The notes under the pieces: model-generated
What the model saw: the letters and a program-made list of their open reading frames with translations, nothing else
The model's database searches: none
Told to the model about the DNA's origin: nothing
Shown: positions 26,883-41,436 of the stretch, in pieces
How positions within the stretch are numbered: the stretch's first letter is position 1
Layout: each line of letters starts with the position of its first letter
Assembly: GCA_018664485.1 (NCBI GenBank)
Contig: JABJOE010000004.1
Span: 1 to 42,647 of the forward strand
DNA: 42,647 nucleotides
Source of the DNA: Candidatus Uhrbacteria bacterium
GTDB taxonomy: Bacteria; Patescibacteriota; Patescibacteriia; UBA9934
Direction of reading: 5' to 3'
Made by a program: the position numbers and the translations under genes

Positions 26883-27935
26883 ATGATCGAGCCATTTGTT
26901 ATCGGAAAAATTCTTGCACTTACAACTATCTCATTTGTTGTAGCTGTGTTGCTGACACCGGCGTGGACTCACGTATTGTTTAAGTTCAAGATGGGGAAGT
27001 CGTTGAGGCTCAAGAAGAAAGCTCCGATTTTTCATAAAATGCATGCCAAGAAAGAGGGGACACCTACGATGGGCGGAGTTCTGATCTGGGGAACAGTTCT
27101 TCTAACGATGAGTGCTTTCTTCTTACTGTCTCTCATTGATCCGACTGGTTTGTTTGGTCAGATGAACTTTCTGTCCCGTGGTGAAACGCTTCTGCCGCTT
27201 GGAGCATTGGTTGCGGCCGGATTGATTGGACTTGCTGATGATTTTTTCAACGTAAAACGCATTGGAAAAAATGGTGGAGGGATTGATATTCGACATAGAC
27301 TACTTCTGTTTCTTGTTATAGCTATCATTGGAGCTTTGTGGTTTTACTTTAAGTTGGACTGGGACCTGTTACATATCCCGTTCGTTGGATCGTTTAACAT
27401 CGGTTGGTGGTACATTCCGTTGTTCGTTCTGGTAATCGTGGGTACTTCGTTTTCTGTAAACCAAACAGATGGATTGGATGGACTTGCTGGTGGAAGCCTG
27501 GTTTCTGCCTTCGGAGCATTCATGTTCATTGCGTTTTTCCAAGAGCGTTATGAGCTTGCTGCATTCTGTGGAGTGATCATGGGGGCGCTTATCGCATTCC
27601 TTTGGTTCAATATTTATCCGGCCCGATTCTTTATGGGTGACACTGGTTCTATGTCGCTCGGGGTTACACTTGGTATTGTCGCAATGCTTACTAATACTGC
27701 CTTGCTATTACCGGTGATCGGTTTGATCTTCGTTGTCGAGGCTGTAACTACAATCATTCAGATAGTTTCTAAAAAGCTTTGGGGAAAGAAAGTATTTCTT
27801 GTAGCACCTATTCATCATCATTATGAAGCGCTAGGCTGGCCCGAACCTAAGGTTGTGATGCGTTTTTGGATTGTGTCGTGGATCGCGGCAGCACTTGGAA
27901 TAATTTTGTACCTATTGGACTTCTCGTTGGTGTAA
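26883..27935 (+). CDS. mraY: Phospho-N-acetylmuramoyl-pentapeptide-transferase
   Basis: A 350-residue, ten-helix membrane enzyme that moves phospho-MurNAc-pentapeptide from UDP to undecaprenyl phosphate, giving lipid I. Signature motifs: TPTMGGVLIW, the Asp pair in LADDFFNVKR, NQTDGLDGLAGG, FMGDTGSMSLG, and PIHHHYEALGWPE. No Shine-Dalgarno site precedes the ATG. It is followed 18 bases later by ftsW; murG comes after an inserted minus-strand gene, as in a broken dcw cluster. Confidence 0.97.
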   Translation: MIEPFVIGKILALTTISFVVAVLLTPAWTHVLFKFKMGKSLRLKKKAPIFHKMHAKKEGTPTMGGVLIWGTVLLTMSAFFLLSLIDPTGLFGQMNFLSRGETLLPLGALVAAGLIGLADDFFNVKRIGKNGGGIDIRHRLLLFLVIAIIGALWFYFKLDWDLLHIPFVGSFNIGWWYIPLFVLVIVGTSFSVNQTDGLDGLAGGSLVSAFGAFMFIAFFQERYELAAFCGVIMGALIAFLWFNIYPARFFMGDTGSMSLGVTLGIVAMLTNTALLLPVIGLIFVVEAVTTIIQIVSKKLWGKKVFLVAPIHHHYEALGWPEPKVVMRFWIVSWIAAALGIILYLLDFSLV

Positions 27936-27953: not shown

Positions 27954-29054
27954 ATGGCATCAAAAGGACAGGTTGATCGCGTTTTTCTAGCTTATATTTT
28001 AGGCCTACTACTCTTTGGATTGATAATGCTTACCTCGGCGTCTGGTCCATTGGGATTCGATCGTTTCGGAGATAGCTATTATTATCTGAAGCATCAGTTT
28101 TTTCTGGGAGCTGTTCCGGGGCTTGTGATGTTATTTGTTGCGTCTCGTGTTGGGTATGGAACGTATAAGAAAAATGCGTTTCTTTTGCTTATCATTTCTA
28201 TTGCGCTTCTTGTAATGGTTTTTATACCAGGGATTGGTACAGACTTTGGAACATTTGCAAATAGTTGGGTTCAGTTTGGATCGTTTTCTTTCCAGCCATC
28301 TGAGCTTGTGAAGCTGACGTTCTTTATGTATTTGGCAGCATGGTTGGTAGAGCGCAGCCATGGTGATATCACAGACGTGAGGTCAGGGCTGATTCCGTTT
28401 CTGATTATTTTAGGGATAGTGGCGATGTTGATGATGCTGCAGCCGGACCTAGGGACGCTGTCTATCATCGCTGCCGTTTCGTTTATTATGTATTTCATTG
28501 CAGGGAGCCCGATTCGTCATTTGCTTGGGATCGGAGCACTGTGTATTGGAGCGTTTACGATTGCAATTAAGATGTCTCCATATCGCGCAGCTCGCTTGAT
28601 GACGTTTTTGCAGCCTGAATTGGATCCTCAAGGGATCGGTTATCAGATCAACCAGGCACTGCTCGCGATTGGGTCAGGTGGGATTTTTGGGAGAGGCTAC
28701 GGGCATTCGCTTCAGAAGTTTCAGTATTTGCCGGAGGTGGTTGGGGATTCTATTTTTGCTGTGATGGCTGAGGAGCTTGGATTTATTTTTACATTGATAT
28801 TTTTGGCGGCGTTTTTGGGGATGCTGCTACGCGGTCTTGATATTGCAAAGAATGCTAAAGATAGATTTGGAAGGTATTTGGTTATTGCGATTATTTCTTG
28901 GTTTGGCGTGCAGGCGTTTGTAAACGTGGGAGCGATTGTCGGGATCATGCCTTTGACGGGCGTGCCGCTGCCGTTTATGAGTTACGGAGGTACGGCGTTG
29001 GTTGTATCACTGATCGCAGCAGGTGTTGTGTTGAATGTTTCGAGAAAATCTTAG
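27954..29054 (+). CDS. ftsW: Peptidoglycan polymerase of the SEDS family, FtsW/RodA
   Basis: A 366-residue protein with about ten membrane helices. SEDS motifs are visible: GFDRFGDSYYYLKHQ near the start, GSFSFQPSELVKL, MLQPDLGT, the long external loop with YQINQALLAIGSGGIFGRGYG, the catalytic-region EELGF and the C-terminal MPLTGVPLPFMSYGGTALV. The family polymerises lipid II glycan strands together with a class b PBP. Position between mraY and murG favours FtsW (division) over RodA (elongation), but sequence alone does not decide. Confidence 0.94.
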   Translation: MASKGQVDRVFLAYILGLLLFGLIMLTSASGPLGFDRFGDSYYYLKHQFFLGAVPGLVMLFVASRVGYGTYKKNAFLLLIISIALLVMVFIPGIGTDFGTFANSWVQFGSFSFQPSELVKLTFFMYLAAWLVERSHGDITDVRSGLIPFLIILGIVAMLMMLQPDLGTLSIIAAVSFIMYFIAGSPIRHLLGIGALCIGAFTIAIKMSPYRAARLMTFLQPELDPQGIGYQINQALLAIGSGGIFGRGYGHSLQKFQYLPEVVGDSIFAVMAEELGFIFTLIFLAAFLGMLLRGLDIAKNAKDRFGRYLVIAIISWFGVQAFVNVGAIVGIMPLTGVPLPFMSYGGTALVVSLIAAGVVLNVSRKS

Positions 29055-29763: not shown

Positions 29764-30870
29764 ATGAAGGAATCTTTGCATATCTTATTTTCAGGAGGAG
29801 GGACCTTAGGGCCGGTTACGCCACTCTTGGCTGTGGCTGAAGTTTGGCGTGAAATGCTAGGGAAAGAGGACTTAAGTTCCAAGGTAGAAGATGTTGAATT
29901 TTCTTGGGTAGGTACAAAGCGTGGCCCGGAGCGTGCTTTGATTGAAGCGGCGCGGATTCCTTTTTATACATTGCACGCACCTAAGCTGGATCGTCATAGA
30001 TGGTGGCGATGGCCGGCTATTCCTTTTTTGCTTTTGTGGAGTATGTGGCGGTCATGGCGGATATTGCGCGCGCTAGAGCCCGACGTTGTTATGAGTGCCG
30101 GAGGTTACGTTAGTGTGCCGCTTGTGATCGTGGCGAGGGTAATGGGAATGAAAGTTTGGATCCATCAGCTGGATCGTGTGCCCGGAATCGCAAATCGCGT
30201 AATGGCGCCGTTTGCAAACCGAATTAGCGTCACGCTTGATGAAAGTTTAGAATCTTTTTCAGAAAAAAAACGATTAGATGTTGGCGGTGTCGTTCGTCCA
30301 CAGATTTGGCAGGGGGATATTGCGAAAGCGCGTGAACGATTTAATCTTCCTAAAAAAGATGACCGATTAACTGTATTGTTATTCGGTGGAGGGACTGGTG
30401 CCGATTCGTTAAATAAGATGATCTCTGTAGTCGGATCTGACCTATCACGCAAGGTGGACATTATTCATCTGACAGGGAAGGGGAAGATGCGTGAGGAATA
30501 TGAGAAAATTAGTGACAGGTATGTGGCTTTGGAATTTTTAGGCGCAGGTATGGCTGACGCATTTGCTTTGGCGGATATTGTTATAGGTCGCGCAGGCATG
30601 GGAACTATTATGGAACTTGCAGCACTTAAGAAGCCAAGCATTATTATTCCACTTCATAATACTGACCAGCTCGGGAATGCCCAGTTGCTTGCGGAGCGCG
30701 ATGCTGCCAAGGTGTTGCAACAGATTAATCCGCAGATTTTCAAACAGGAGGTTGAATCTTTTGTTGCGGATGATGAAATGCGGCGTGCATATAGCCGTCG
30801 TATGGGAATGCTGTTTTCTCCACGCGGGGCGGAGAAGATCGTTGTTGAGTTGATGAGATTATTGAGCTAG
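29764..30870 (+). CDS. murG: UDP-GlcNAc:lipid I N-acetylglucosaminyltransferase
   Basis: A 368-residue GT28 enzyme converting lipid I to lipid II. The N-terminal FSGGGTLGPVTPLLAVAEVW corresponds to the GGTGGHxxPxLA loop, here with Thr-Leu-Gly-Pro-Val in place of Gly-Gly-His, so the usual His is absent. MSAGGYVSVP, the second loop GGGTGADSLN and the UDP-binding IGRAGMGTIMELAALKKPSIIIPL follow. The His change is worth noting, as that loop contacts the acceptor phosphate. It is separated from ftsW by the divergent pentapeptide gene. Confidence 0.94.
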   Translation: MKESLHILFSGGGTLGPVTPLLAVAEVWREMLGKEDLSSKVEDVEFSWVGTKRGPERALIEAARIPFYTLHAPKLDRHRWWRWPAIPFLLLWSMWRSWRILRALEPDVVMSAGGYVSVPLVIVARVMGMKVWIHQLDRVPGIANRVMAPFANRISVTLDESLESFSEKKRLDVGGVVRPQIWQGDIAKARERFNLPKKDDRLTVLLFGGGTGADSLNKMISVVGSDLSRKVDIIHLTGKGKMREEYEKISDRYVALEFLGAGMADAFALADIVIGRAGMGTIMELAALKKPSIIIPLHNTDQLGNAQLLAERDAAKVLQQINPQIFKQEVESFVADDEMRRAYSRRMGMLFSPRGAEKIVVELMRLLS

Positions 30871-30979: not shown

Positions 30980-31189
30980 TTACGCAGCTGGTGCTTCTTC
31001 TGCTGCTGGAGCCTCTGCTGGCGCCTCAGCTGCTGCTTCTGCAGGAGCTTCAGCTGGTGCTTCTGCCGCTGCTTCCGCAGGCGCTTCTGCTGCTGGAGCT
31101 GCCTCTGCGCCACCGGCACAGTTAGGGCACTTTCCTTCTGCTAGTGTGTCATCAGCGACTTCTGCGCTGCAAGCTGTACAAACTCCCAT
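30980..31189 (-). CDS. Small zinc-ribbon protein with Ala/Pro/Glu low-complexity tail
   Basis: A 69-residue protein. Residues 4-24 hold two pairs of cysteines, CTAC and CPNC, spaced as in a zinc ribbon. Residues about 28-69 consist almost only of Ala, Glu and Pro in irregular APAEA units, expected to be extended and disordered. A -10 box TATAAT (31212-31207) lies 17 bases before the ATG. Small ribbon proteins with such tails occur in CPR genomes as I recall, and their job is unknown; binding to RNA polymerase, ribosome or nucleic acid is possible. The simple tail could arise by repeat slippage. Confidence 0.75.
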   Translation of the reverse strand: MGVCTACSAEVADDTLAEGKCPNCAGGAEAAPAAEAPAEAAAEAPAEAPAEAAAEAPAEAPAAEEAPAA

Positions 31190-31343: not shown

Positions 31344-31419
31344 CCGCCGATAGCTCAGTTGGTAGAGCAAGGGCCTTTTAAGCCCGTGGTCGCTGGTTCA
31401 AGTCCAGCTCGGCGGACCA
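31344..31419 (+). tRNA. tRNA-Lys (anticodon TTT)
   Basis: A full cloverleaf of 76 bases: acceptor arms CCGCCGA (31344-31350) and TCGGCGG pair perfectly, the D stem is GCTC/GAGC, the anticodon loop CTTTTAA has TTT at 31377-31379, the T arm GCTGG/CCAGC encloses TTCAAGT, and CCA is encoded (31417-31419). The first anticodon-stem pair is A27/G43, a mismatch, leaving four pairs. TTT reads AAA and AAG lysine codons. Confidence 0.96.
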
Positions 31420-35387: not shown

Positions 35388-36845
35388 ATGGATTTGACCA
35401 AAATTGAAAATTTTCAGGACGCTGTTGTTACGGTAATGGGTCTTGGTCGTTATAAACAGGGTAGTGGTCTTGGTGCCGCTAAATGGTTGATGCGCCACGG
35501 TGCACAGACATTGATTACCGACTGGAAGGATGAGACAGAACTTGAGGAGTCCATGGATTTGGTTATGGGATTCTACGAGGAATATCGGGAAAAGTATCCA
35601 GACAGAACTATTTACCAGCCAGTTTTCGTTTTGGGAGAGCATAGAAAAGACGATTTTATAGAAGCTGATTGTATTGTTGTAAACCCAGGAGTTCCATCTG
35701 ACTCAGAGTTTATTGTTGCCGCAAGGGAGGCGGGAGTGTCAATCGAATCAGATGTGAGTTTATTTTTCCGTTTCTGCCCGTTCCCGATAATGGCAGTGAC
35801 AGGTACGAAGGGGAAGACTACAACTACAAAAATGTTAGGCGAGATGATGAAGTTGGATGATGAGAAAACTATCGTAGCTGGAAACGTTGGTGTATCTCCG
35901 CTGGAATTTTTAGATGAACTTCTCGCAGAAAACATTGAACGTAAAATTGTTATCGAGTTGTCATCTTGGTTGCTCGAGAGTCTTCCGCCGGCATTCAAAG
36001 ATATGCATGAAGGGCCAGACATTTCCGTTTTGACAAATGTATTTCCTGATCACTTGAACCGTTACCACTCTTTTGGTGACTACGTTCATTCAAAGGAAAT
36101 TATTTTTGAGTGGCAATCATCCGAACAGCACACCATATTGAACTGGGATCAGGAGATAGTTCGATTTATGGAAGAGAAGGTGAAAGGTAAGCTGTCTTGG
36201 TGCTCAACTACGTATCAAGAGCACGAAGGGTGCTTTGTAAAAGATGGACAGATCGTTTGGCGTCATGATGGAGCGGAGCAGGTTGTTGTTCCGGTAAGCG
36301 AAGTCGCACTTAAGGGAGATCATAATATGGAAAATGTTTTAACCTCTGTGTGCGCCGCTGCATTACGAGGAGTTAGCATTGAGTCGATCGCGTCTGTTGT
36401 TCGGTCGTTTAAAGGAGTGTCTGATCGTCAGGAGCTGGTACGCGAGGTTGATGAGATTTCATATGTTAATGATACGACTGCTTCAAATCCGGGCGCTGTT
36501 ATCGCGGCATTGAAACGCTTCGGTGCTGACGGAGATATTATCTTGATTGCTGGTGGTGAGAATAAAAAGTTGGAATATAACGAGATGGCTGATGAGGTCG
36601 CAAAGACATGTAAGAACGTTGTTTTGTTCGAGGGGGATGCATCCGATCTTATTGAGAAGGGGATTGGGGAGCGTGTTCCGGTAATGAGTGGTGTAGCTTC
36701 GATGGAGCAGGCGGTTCAGGCGGCGCGTAAGTTGGCTGTGAGTGGAGACATCGTTCTTCTGTCACCCGGTGCTGCAAGTTTCAATCTTTTCAAAAACGAA
36801 TTTGATCGCGGAGAACAATTCCGTGAAGAAGTACGAAAACTATAA
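35388..36845 (+). CDS. murD: UDP-N-acetylmuramoyl-L-alanine:D-glutamate ligase
   Basis: A 485-residue Mur ligase. An N-terminal Rossmann-like domain (VTVMGLGRYKQGSG, NPGVPSDSEF) binds UDP-MurNAc-Ala; the ATP P-loop is VTGTKGKTTTTK with Lys143; the central domain has LTNVFPDHLNRYHSFGDYVHSK and KGDHNMENVLTSVCAA; the C-terminal domain starts at SDRQELVREVDEISYVNDTTASNP. The usual HRME is SDRQE here, a divergent but recognisable form. Enzymes adding D-Glu belong to the cytosolic stage of wall synthesis. It is first in a five-gene operon with overlapping starts. Confidence 0.92.
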   Translation: MDLTKIENFQDAVVTVMGLGRYKQGSGLGAAKWLMRHGAQTLITDWKDETELEESMDLVMGFYEEYREKYPDRTIYQPVFVLGEHRKDDFIEADCIVVNPGVPSDSEFIVAAREAGVSIESDVSLFFRFCPFPIMAVTGTKGKTTTTKMLGEMMKLDDEKTIVAGNVGVSPLEFLDELLAENIERKIVIELSSWLLESLPPAFKDMHEGPDISVLTNVFPDHLNRYHSFGDYVHSKEIIFEWQSSEQHTILNWDQEIVRFMEEKVKGKLSWCSTTYQEHEGCFVKDGQIVWRHDGAEQVVVPVSEVALKGDHNMENVLTSVCAAALRGVSIESIASVVRSFKGVSDRQELVREVDEISYVNDTTASNPGAVIAALKRFGADGDIILIAGGENKKLEYNEMADEVAKTCKNVVLFEGDASDLIEKGIGERVPVMSGVASMEQAVQAARKLAVSGDIVLLSPGAASFNLFKNEFDRGEQFREEVRKL

Positions 36846-38173
36846 TGTTACACAAGATCAAAAAACTGGTTCCAACATGGATGACAGCGCCTTATCACTG
36901 GGCGCTGGCTTGGATATCAGCTATTGTCTATCGATTTCCATCCAATAAACTTATCGTGATTGGTGTTACAGGAACAAATGGAAAATCATCAACTATTCAG
37001 TTTATCGCACAGATGCTAGAGGGCCTCGGAAAAACCGTCGGTTACACCGGTACTGCTGGCTTTTATATTGCAGGTGAGACGATTGAGAATAAAATGAAGA
37101 TGACAATGCCTGGTCGATTCTTCTTGCAGCGGCTTTTGCGAGACATGGTTCGGGCTAAATGTCAGTATGCTTTGGTTGAGACAACGTCACAGGGTATTGA
37201 GCAATACCGACATTTGGGAATTAATTACGATGTAGTTCTTTTTACAAATTTAACGCCTGAGCACATCGAGTCTCATGGAGGATTTGATCAATATAAGGCT
37301 GCGAAAGGAAAATTGTTTGCACACCTCACTAATCGAAAACGAAAAGTGATCGGAAACGAACGGATGGAGAAAACGTCGGTGATTAATGCTGATGATCCAC
37401 ATGCATCATATTTTTCAAAGTTCGATGCTGATCGACATGTAAAGTTTTCATGGAGTGAGGATGATGGCGGCGAGGATGTGATCGACGTTCATGCATTGTC
37501 ACATGATATAGACGGAGCTCACGTGAAGATTAACAATGTTGATGGATTGATACCGATGCACGCTTTGTTCCAGCAGAAAAATGCTGTAGCTGCGCTGTCC
37601 GTTGTTCATTCTTTAGGATTCGGTTTACGGGAGTGCATGAAGGTGATGGAGAATCTAGATTCTCTGCCGGGACGTTTTGAAATAATCGATGAAGGACAGG
37701 ATTTTCAAGTTATTGTTGACTATGCTTATGAGCCTTACGCGCTCGAGGCGCTTTTGAGCGCTGCGGAGAAATTGCCGCATAAACGAATAATCGGTGTGCA
37801 TGGATCATGCGGCGGTGGTCGGGATGTTGCAAGACGCGATAAGATCGGTCGCTTGGCTGGCCATCGTGAAGATGTGGTGATCGTTACAAACGAGGATCCA
37901 TATGACGAAGACCCACGTTGTATTATTGAGGCTGTCGCAAAGGGAGTGAAGGCTACTGGAAAAAGAGAGGGGGAAAGTTTGTTTATTATTGATGACAGAA
38001 TGGAGGCTATTCAGCATGCAATCGATATTGCAAAAAAAGGTGACATAGTTTTATTGACAGGGAAGGGTTCTGAAACGGTAATGGCGGTTGCGGGTGGGCG
38101 TAAGACTCCGTGGAGTGATCGTGAAGCTGCGCATCAGGCTCTCAAAAGACGAAAAGCAAGTTCGCTTGTATGA
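36845..38173 (+). CDS. murE: MurE-like Mur ligase with shortened N-terminal domain
   Basis: A 442-residue ligase, MurE by its central domain: P-loop VTGTNGKSST (Lys47), VETTSQGIEQYRHLGI, FTNLTPEHIESHGGFDQYKAAKGKLF. The P-loop lies near residue 45 instead of about 110, so most of the UDP-binding first domain is missing and replaced by a helical, membrane-like stretch (about 10-32). At the amino-acid selection site, E350-D-P-Y353 replaces the DNPR that marks diaminopimelate-adding enzymes, so the third residue of the stem peptide is unclear. MurT-like or other Mur-ligase roles are possible. The start overlaps the murD stop (TAATG). Confidence 0.82.
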   Translation: MLHKIKKLVPTWMTAPYHWALAWISAIVYRFPSNKLIVIGVTGTNGKSSTIQFIAQMLEGLGKTVGYTGTAGFYIAGETIENKMKMTMPGRFFLQRLLRDMVRAKCQYALVETTSQGIEQYRHLGINYDVVLFTNLTPEHIESHGGFDQYKAAKGKLFAHLTNRKRKVIGNERMEKTSVINADDPHASYFSKFDADRHVKFSWSEDDGGEDVIDVHALSHDIDGAHVKINNVDGLIPMHALFQQKNAVAALSVVHSLGFGLRECMKVMENLDSLPGRFEIIDEGQDFQVIVDYAYEPYALEALLSAAEKLPHKRIIGVHGSCGGGRDVARRDKIGRLAGHREDVVIVTNEDPYDEDPRCIIEAVAKGVKATGKREGESLFIIDDRMEAIQHAIDIAKKGDIVLLTGKGSETVMAVAGGRKTPWSDREAAHQALKRRKASSLV

Positions 38174-40548: not shown

Positions 40549-41436
40549 ATGAACGCAACCCTGAAGACCCTGATCGGCCTGAGCCTGATCGGCCTGAGCC
40601 TGGTGGCCTGTAGCCCCCACGGCGACAATGACGACACCCTCGACACCGGCACCTCCGACGATGATGGTGAGCTGTCGAGCGCCGGCGAGGGCGACGATGG
40701 CGACGACGGTGGCGACACCGACGACACCGACGAGCCCGAGGTCGATGCGGACGGCGACGGCTTCACCGCCGACGAAGACTGCGACGACAGCGATGCTAGC
40801 ACCTACCCCGGCGCCCCCGAGCTCTGTGACGGCCTCGACAACGACTGCGATGACGTGGTCGACGAAGATGCCATCAACGACTCGACCTGGTACCGCGATA
40901 GTGATGGCGATGGGTACGGTGATCCGTCCATCTCGACCAGCGCCTGCGATGTCCCGAGCGGTTTCGTCGGCAACGGCGACGACTGCGACGACACCGACGC
41001 CAGTGCATACGACGACTGCACCAGTACGGACACCTGCACCATCGACATGGAGTGGGAGCCCGAAGGTGGCGCCAAGGACCTTCTCTCGCTCAGCTACGAG
41101 CTGGACTGCGATAGCAGCTACGAGGACTGGGATGCGACCGTCGCGGCCACCTCCAGCAGCTCGATTGCAGGCAGCTTCAGCCGTGAGATGAGCGAGGGCC
41201 AAGTCTGCATGTTGCGGATGAACGCCACGTCTCAGCTCGAGACCGAGAGCTACCGCGTCCGCTACGGCTGCGAGAGCACTTCGGGGTCCGAGTCCGGCGA
41301 CATCAACCAGGGTACCTGGAGTGTGACCGTCGACTGCGGAACGCCCATGGTCCAGACCATCAGCGTCAACAGCAAGGACAGCGGCACCGTCGACGGCTGC
41401 GAGACCGAAGTCATCCCGTTGGTTCTGGCCTTCTAG
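40549..41436 (+). CDS. Secreted lipoprotein with MopE-type putative metal-binding motifs
   Basis: A 295-residue protein. Signal peptide with lipobox LVAC (Cys21), so a surface or membrane-bound lipoprotein. Residues about 25-65 are an acidic Asp/Gly/Thr linker. About 66-150 contain the MopE-type pattern DGDGFTADEDCDDSDAS, CDGLDNDCDDVVDED and DSDGDGYGD (Pfam Cu-binding_MopE family), thought to bind metal, probably calcium-like or copper in MopE itself. The last 150 residues look like a beta domain with six or so cysteines. It is GC-rich with C-ending codons, has a GGAG site 5 bases before the ATG, and an internal 15-base tandem duplication in the signal peptide. Such proteins are typical of Myxococcota-like bacteria, so foreign origin or contig chimera is possible. 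Confidence 0.85.
   Translation: MNATLKTLIGLSLIGLSLVACSPHGDNDDTLDTGTSDDDGELSSAGEGDDGDDGGDTDDTDEPEVDADGDGFTADEDCDDSDASTYPGAPELCDGLDNDCDDVVDEDAINDSTWYRDSDGDGYGDPSISTSACDVPSGFVGNGDDCDDTDASAYDDCTSTDTCTIDMEWEPEGGAKDLLSLSYELDCDSSYEDWDATVAATSSSSIAGSFSREMSEGQVCMLRMNATSQLETESYRVRYGCESTSGSESGDINQGTWSVTVDCGTPMVQTISVNSKDSGTVDGCETEVIPLVLAF

Follow-up and report, generated by a model that had tools for sequence, protein, structure and literature searches.

A MurE ligase without its UDP-binding domain in Candidatus Uhrbacteria and the stage of the Mur pathway at which it may act

In the textbook Mur pathway, the ligases MurC to MurF all use a soluble precursor linked to uridine diphosphate (UDP) ahead of MraY, and domain 1 of each of them binds the uridine part of the substrate. 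What a MurE does when this domain is missing is the question raised by a gene in a stretch of 42,647 nucleotides from Candidatus Uhrbacteria bacterium (assembly GCA_018664485.1, contig JABJOE010000004.1; hereafter the window). The gene, murE (36845..38173, plus strand), encodes 442 amino acids, in which Pfam recognizes the Mur_ligase_M (residues 41–253) and Mur_ligase_C (276–408) domains. A first-pass annotation made from the letters of the DNA had described the product as a MurE-like ligase lacking most of its first domain. We find that it is a true MurE, genuine rather than an artefact. The full reading, in which the sole MurE of the genome has domain 1 swapped for a helix and adds L-Lys at the membrane to a lipid-linked precursor after MraY has acted, is one to which we lend about half of our confidence.

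The sole MurE of the genome

The open reading frame (ORF) scores 338.4 bits against the MurE profile TIGR01085 in an NCBIfam search, above the cut-off of 257.3, in an alignment that begins at profile position 67 of 472. In a Pfam scan, the N-domain PF01225 was not detected, nor was anything else before residue 41. The first-pass statement that the UDP-binding first domain is almost gone is borne out by both searches. Its placement of the P-loop Lys at residue 47 is correct as well, in coordinates and frame: the P-loop TGTNGKS (residues 42–48; 36968..36988, plus strand) contains Lys47, which is invariant in 32 relatives, as is Lys154 in the motif YKAAK (37304..37306, plus strand), at the position that we take to be that of the lysine carbamylated in Mur ligases. 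A missed upstream start supplying domain 1, which had been considered in that annotation, is ruled out. The ATG of murE overlaps the stop codon of murD (TAATG), and the stop-to-stop frame comprises 448 amino acids, with room for only six codons ahead of the ATG. The adjoining murD (35388..36845, plus strand), which shares one base with murE, carries its own N-terminal domain (PF21799) and scores 363 bits with TIGR01087.

The source genome (981,522 bp in 10 contigs) is rated 100% complete. It encodes five Mur_ligase_M proteins, namely MurE, the adjoining MurD, MurC (L004), a MurF-like protein (L002) and a FolC-like protein (L005), and candidates for MurC, MurD, MurF, MraY and MurG are all present alongside the single MurE candidate. 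The second, full-length murE envisaged in the first-pass annotation was not found in a profile search of this genome, nor was any other second copy. A separate N-domain protein acting in trans is likewise rejected at the sensitivity of PF01225, the sole match of the genome being in MurC.

The AlphaFold2 model of the product is confident throughout (mean pLDDT 93.5). The phylogeny and the structure model that had been proposed as checks both place it in MurE: in a Foldseek search the best matches in the Protein Data Bank (PDB) are the S. aureus MurE structures 4c13 and 4c12 (TM 0.83), with E. coli MurE (1e8c) at 0.80 and MurT at 0.48–0.50, and in the tree the product groups with the MurE rows, split from MurF at an SH-aLRT support of 100, the branching within MurE being only partly resolved. 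The enzyme shares with S. aureus MurE the middle and C-terminal domains, the P-loop, the Lys154 position, the acceptor Glu410 and a selection motif without Arg. It differs by the absence of domain 1 (S. aureus residues 1–98), in whose place it has a basic N-terminal helix, and by EDPY for DNPA. The fold of domains 2 and 3 is also that of E. coli MurE, which, unlike the present enzyme, has domain 1 and the motif DNPR.

Loss of the domain across the phylum and along the pathway

We surveyed 240 genomes drawn from the phylum, in 199 of which MurE was readable (hand count of match tables). The TIGR01085 matches start nearly always at profile position 42–93. MurE is without the UDP-binding domain in 188 of the 199, a few long MurE frames (e.g. 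G185 and G095) being read from the profile match onward, and canonical in six (G165, G163, G105, G001, G077 and G233); in the remaining five (G055, G098, G018, G084 and G013) a MurC/D-like Rossmann domain stands in place of the N-domain. The MurE retrieved from other phyla have, nearly without exception, about 100–130 residues ahead of the P-loop. The domain-1-less MurE, here called N-less, is the ordinary form in its phylum and not a peculiarity of the source genome, with named relatives in Kaiser-, Nomura-, Taylor-, Lipton-, Moran-, Davies- and Saccharibacteria. Most N-less MurE fall in a single set of the tree (52 rows, SH-aLRT 92), which leaves out a Saccharibacteria group and a few deep rows. 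Among the canonical MurE of Patescibacteria, those of families f11 and f63 and of G165 cluster with one another, and that of G163 is placed among Bacteroidota, likely as a result of transfer. About four label changes are needed to explain the N-less and canonical states, and the starred branches of the tree force at least two; the loss may have been single or multiple. As separate observations, the MurE with a MurC/D-like Rossmann N-domain (L069, L070, L071, L072 and L076) belong to families f28, f67 and f23, and three of the five genomes have a full-length MurF. In f63, MurC and MurD are joined to a full-length MurE in one ORF of 1341–1346 amino acids (L187:648-4685 in G233; L188:639-4661 in G077).

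The loss is specific to certain steps: it affects MurE and usually MurF, and the UDP-binding domains of MurC and MurD are retained. PF01225 is present in 205 of the 240 genomes, in nearly all of them once only, and the MurD matches mostly cover positions 1–440 of the 441 of their profile. The MurF matches mostly begin at profile position 46 or later; among the matches listed, the N-domain is kept in the MurF of nine genomes only, all in families f28, f67 and f11, and no genome combines an N-less MurE with a full-length MurF. This retention in MurC and MurD speaks against general genome shrinkage as the full cause. No clear MurD was seen in eight genomes of the same class (G056, G161 and G239 of f3; G099, G114, G128 and G222 of f5; G183 of f7), where the best TIGR01087 E-values are about 1e-20 to 1e-28; those of f3 and f5 still keep MurE.

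The N-less MurF-type proteins are of two kinds. L002 of the source genome belongs to the short kind, in which 25–30 residues with a basic amphipathic helix (MKKFLVSKLQSAAKRAIE in L002) precede the P-loop. In the long kind this region contains one to six hydrophobic segments, on a simple scale, and the KGSQ..R.E end of MurF is absent; the N-terminal part is modelled as long helices that continue into the ligase, which at a pLDDT of about 50–75 is only a hint. Because G038 carries both kinds, the long one may be a separate enzyme and perhaps not MurF. Five N-less MurF-type proteins scored 227–276 bits with TIGR01143, all below the MurF cut-off of 288.6. The N-less MurF-like ligases of the phylum (L002 in the source genome, the L044 type elsewhere) resemble the present MurE in the loss of the UDP-binding domain and in a membrane element that is the same or stronger, and differ from it in belonging to the MurF lineage. 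Hydrophobic segments before the P-loop were noted in the MurF-like ligases L041, L044, L045, L046, L049, L050, L054, L055, L184, L187, L188 and L052 (the last not scored), most of which share a conserved QL.EY..DR motif and which are possibly a second, membrane-embedded ligase.

The new N-terminus and the acceptor pocket

It had been noted at first that a membrane-like stretch takes the place of domain 1. The N-terminus is indeed replaced, but residues ~19–36 align with the helix between domain 1 and the P-loop of canonical MurE (alignments begin at about residue 20), and the truly new part is residues 1–18 only (36845..36898, plus strand), a conserved basic element recognized by its conservation, charge and amphipathicity. 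In the AlphaFold2 model these residues form a helix (2–8) and the start of another (11–28). N-less MurE share the start pattern [KR]K[IL][IVL]P...YH; all but one of 32 rows have His18, at a place where Arg predominates in canonical MurE (36/54). A conserved start of this kind marks the N-terminus as a replacement kept by selection and not as a ragged truncation. The first 20 residues of the 32 N-less relatives have a mean net charge of +3.2, and the D score lies above a threshold taken as 1.34 in 78% of them; among 56 canonical MurE linkers the share is 20%. Residues 1–18 have the look of a basic amphipathic element and not of a segment that crosses the membrane, and such a start fits membrane contact.

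The selection motif EDPY (residues 350–353; 37892..37903, plus strand) aligns with DNPA (406–409) of the Lys-adding S. aureus MurE and with DNPR (413–416) of E. coli MurE, which adds meso-diaminopimelate (mDAP). The first-pass annotation had called it atypical against DNPR. The motif does stand at 350–353, but it is atypical only against textbook MurE, TNEDPY being the majority sequence among the 32 relatives (E in 25, D in 27, P in 26 and Y in 22). Glu410 in GKGSE (38072..38074, plus strand) aligns with Glu460 of the S. aureus enzyme and Glu468 of the E. coli enzyme and is E in 26 of the 32. In S. aureus MurE, Asp406 and Glu460 bind the lysine side-chain amino group, and in E. coli MurE, Arg416 is the residue that holds the second carboxylate of mDAP (PMC3829189). 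By homology, the pocket of the present enzyme holds three carboxylates (E350, D351 and E410), with Tyr353 sitting where mDAP enzymes have Arg; the motif is Arg-less, and it is by homology only that the pocket has the carboxylates of L-Lys-adding MurE. On these two grounds, the residue added is most likely L-Lys or another that has an amino group on its side chain and lacks a second carboxylate, and the absence of DapF from the genome together with the presence of one FemAB-family gene make such a residue the better guess. The identity of the third stem residue, which had been left uncertain at first, is narrowed in this way: we consider it probable, with some confidence, that it is a basic residue other than mDAP. 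As regards other genomes, a FemAB-family gene lies directly upstream of an N-less murE in a Moranbacteria contig (L088:4720-5988), a FemAB-like ORF adjoins murE in G010 (L193), and two MurE of f3 read DVNC[FY]DEDP at the selection motif.

Stage of the pathway at which MurE may act

MurT, which has no UDP-binding domain, amidates lipid I and lipid II and not UDP-precursors, and an argument from structure holds that such a domain, if present, would collide with the membrane (PMC6113224, PMC6085368). It is a precedent for a Mur ligase acting at the lipid stage (PMC6113224, PMC6085368, PMC3266927). Because of this logic and of the basic amphipathic start of the present enzyme, we infer an order in which MraY precedes MurE and MurF. 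MraY would act first, on the dipeptide precursor, and yield lipid-linked MurNAc-L-Ala-D-Glu. MurE, laid on the membrane by its basic N-terminal helix, would extend this intermediate with L-Lys or another basic residue, domains 2 and 3 using ATP to activate the D-Glu carboxylate before joining the diamino acid, and the N-less MurF would complete the stem, still on the lipid, with D-Ala-D-Ala. In such a pathway MurC and MurD would need UDP, and MurE and MurF would not. A lipid-linked substrate for MurE is, by this analogy, about evenly poised.

The likeness to MurT could also be read as identity, and MurT-like lipid II amidation had been raised in the first-pass annotation. The two-domain layout with an N-terminus of 35–40 residues is like that of MurT (PMC6113224), a partner of GatD in the MurT/GatD amidotransferase that has about as many residues before its P-loop. 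The N-terminus of MurT is disordered, whereas in the present MurE it is a conserved and confidently modelled helix. GatD (PF07685), the search for which had been suggested, was not found in the genome, with a control detected in 14/14 genomes; the MurT model NF052464 reached 20.9 bits against a cut-off of 800, and in Pfam no MurT C-terminal domain was detected, the C-end matching PF02875 only. With fold and tree inside MurE, MurT/GatD identity is rejected, and the position of the gene directly behind murD as the only MurE candidate further argues against a non-MurE role of any sort (lipid II amidation, poly-amino-acid ligase or other Mur-like), which we hold to be very improbable. More serious is the possibility that the enzyme uses a UDP-linked substrate at the membrane surface, domain 1 having been shed as dispensable in genome reduction and the helix docking near MraY or Mur proteins for channelling. 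Several points weigh against our preferred reading, and some of them favour this one directly. S. aureus MurT replaced MurE on UDP-MurNAc-dipeptide in vitro (PMC3266927, data not shown there), so domain loss alone does not forbid a UDP-linked substrate, and most of the muropeptide pocket of S. aureus MurE lies in domain 2 (PMC3829189). Ser115, Gln120 and Arg122 (the ESS..Q.R region), taken as muropeptide contacts, are kept in 30–32 of the 32 relatives. Moreover, as a sign of lipid binding the D score is only a hint, no biochemical work on these organisms was found, and it is only partly true that MurE and MurF lose the domain together, a canonical MurE being paired in G163 with an N-less MurF and in G001, G077 and G233 with a membrane-helix MurF-like protein. 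On the other hand, general shrinkage does not account for a loss confined to the last two ligases, the UDP-binding domains being retained in MurC and MurD alongside them, and one MurF-like type has grown rather than shrunk, by acquiring membrane helices. We regard a UDP-linked substrate as a real but somewhat doubtful alternative.

A MurE that adds mDAP despite its altered motif, and for which the mDAP is scavenged from a host, would be compatible with either substrate. Patescibacteria, widely regarded as dependent on hosts, could import it. The DAP-type equivalog NF001126 outscores the Lys-type NF010628 (309.9 versus 219.9 bits), both being under their cut-offs (373 and 536), and the absence of DapF, although it speaks against mDAP, is compatible with scavenged mDAP or another route. 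MurE pockets of the S. aureus type can also be loosely specific, the lysine pool of the cell being decisive (PMC3829189). The acidic pocket, with Tyr353 for the Arg that holds the second carboxylate and Asp351 for Asn, points the other way and makes addition of mDAP unlikely.

A literature search that was short on subscription papers found no published description of an N-less MurE or MurF in the Candidate Phyla Radiation (CPR)/Patescibacteria, and within the literature searchable, the step-specific loss and its likely meaning appear undescribed. A whole phylum whose last two ligases are without the UDP-grip and carry membrane elements would point to a different pathway order in bacteria, to our knowledge the first sign of one. 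It would bear on wall building by ultra-small, host-dependent cells, on the precursors that could pass between them and their hosts, and on the range of Mur and MraY inhibitors to which they could be sensitive.

Other genes of the pathway lie upstream in the window on the plus strand: mraY (26883..27935; TIGR00445, 223 bits), ftsW (27954..29054; TIGR02614, 352 bits) and murG (29764..30870; TIGR01133, 199 bits, under its cut-off of 250). A tRNA-Lys(ttt) gene (31344–31419) is situated between murG and a glycosyltransferase gene, and an ORF of 69 amino acids on the minus strand (30980–31189) carries two CxxC motifs and, after them, an Ala/Pro/Glu repeat (MGVCTACSAEVADDTLAEGKCPNCAGG...). Downstream of murE, the ORF at 40549–41436 carries a Cu-binding MopE-type motif (PF11617).
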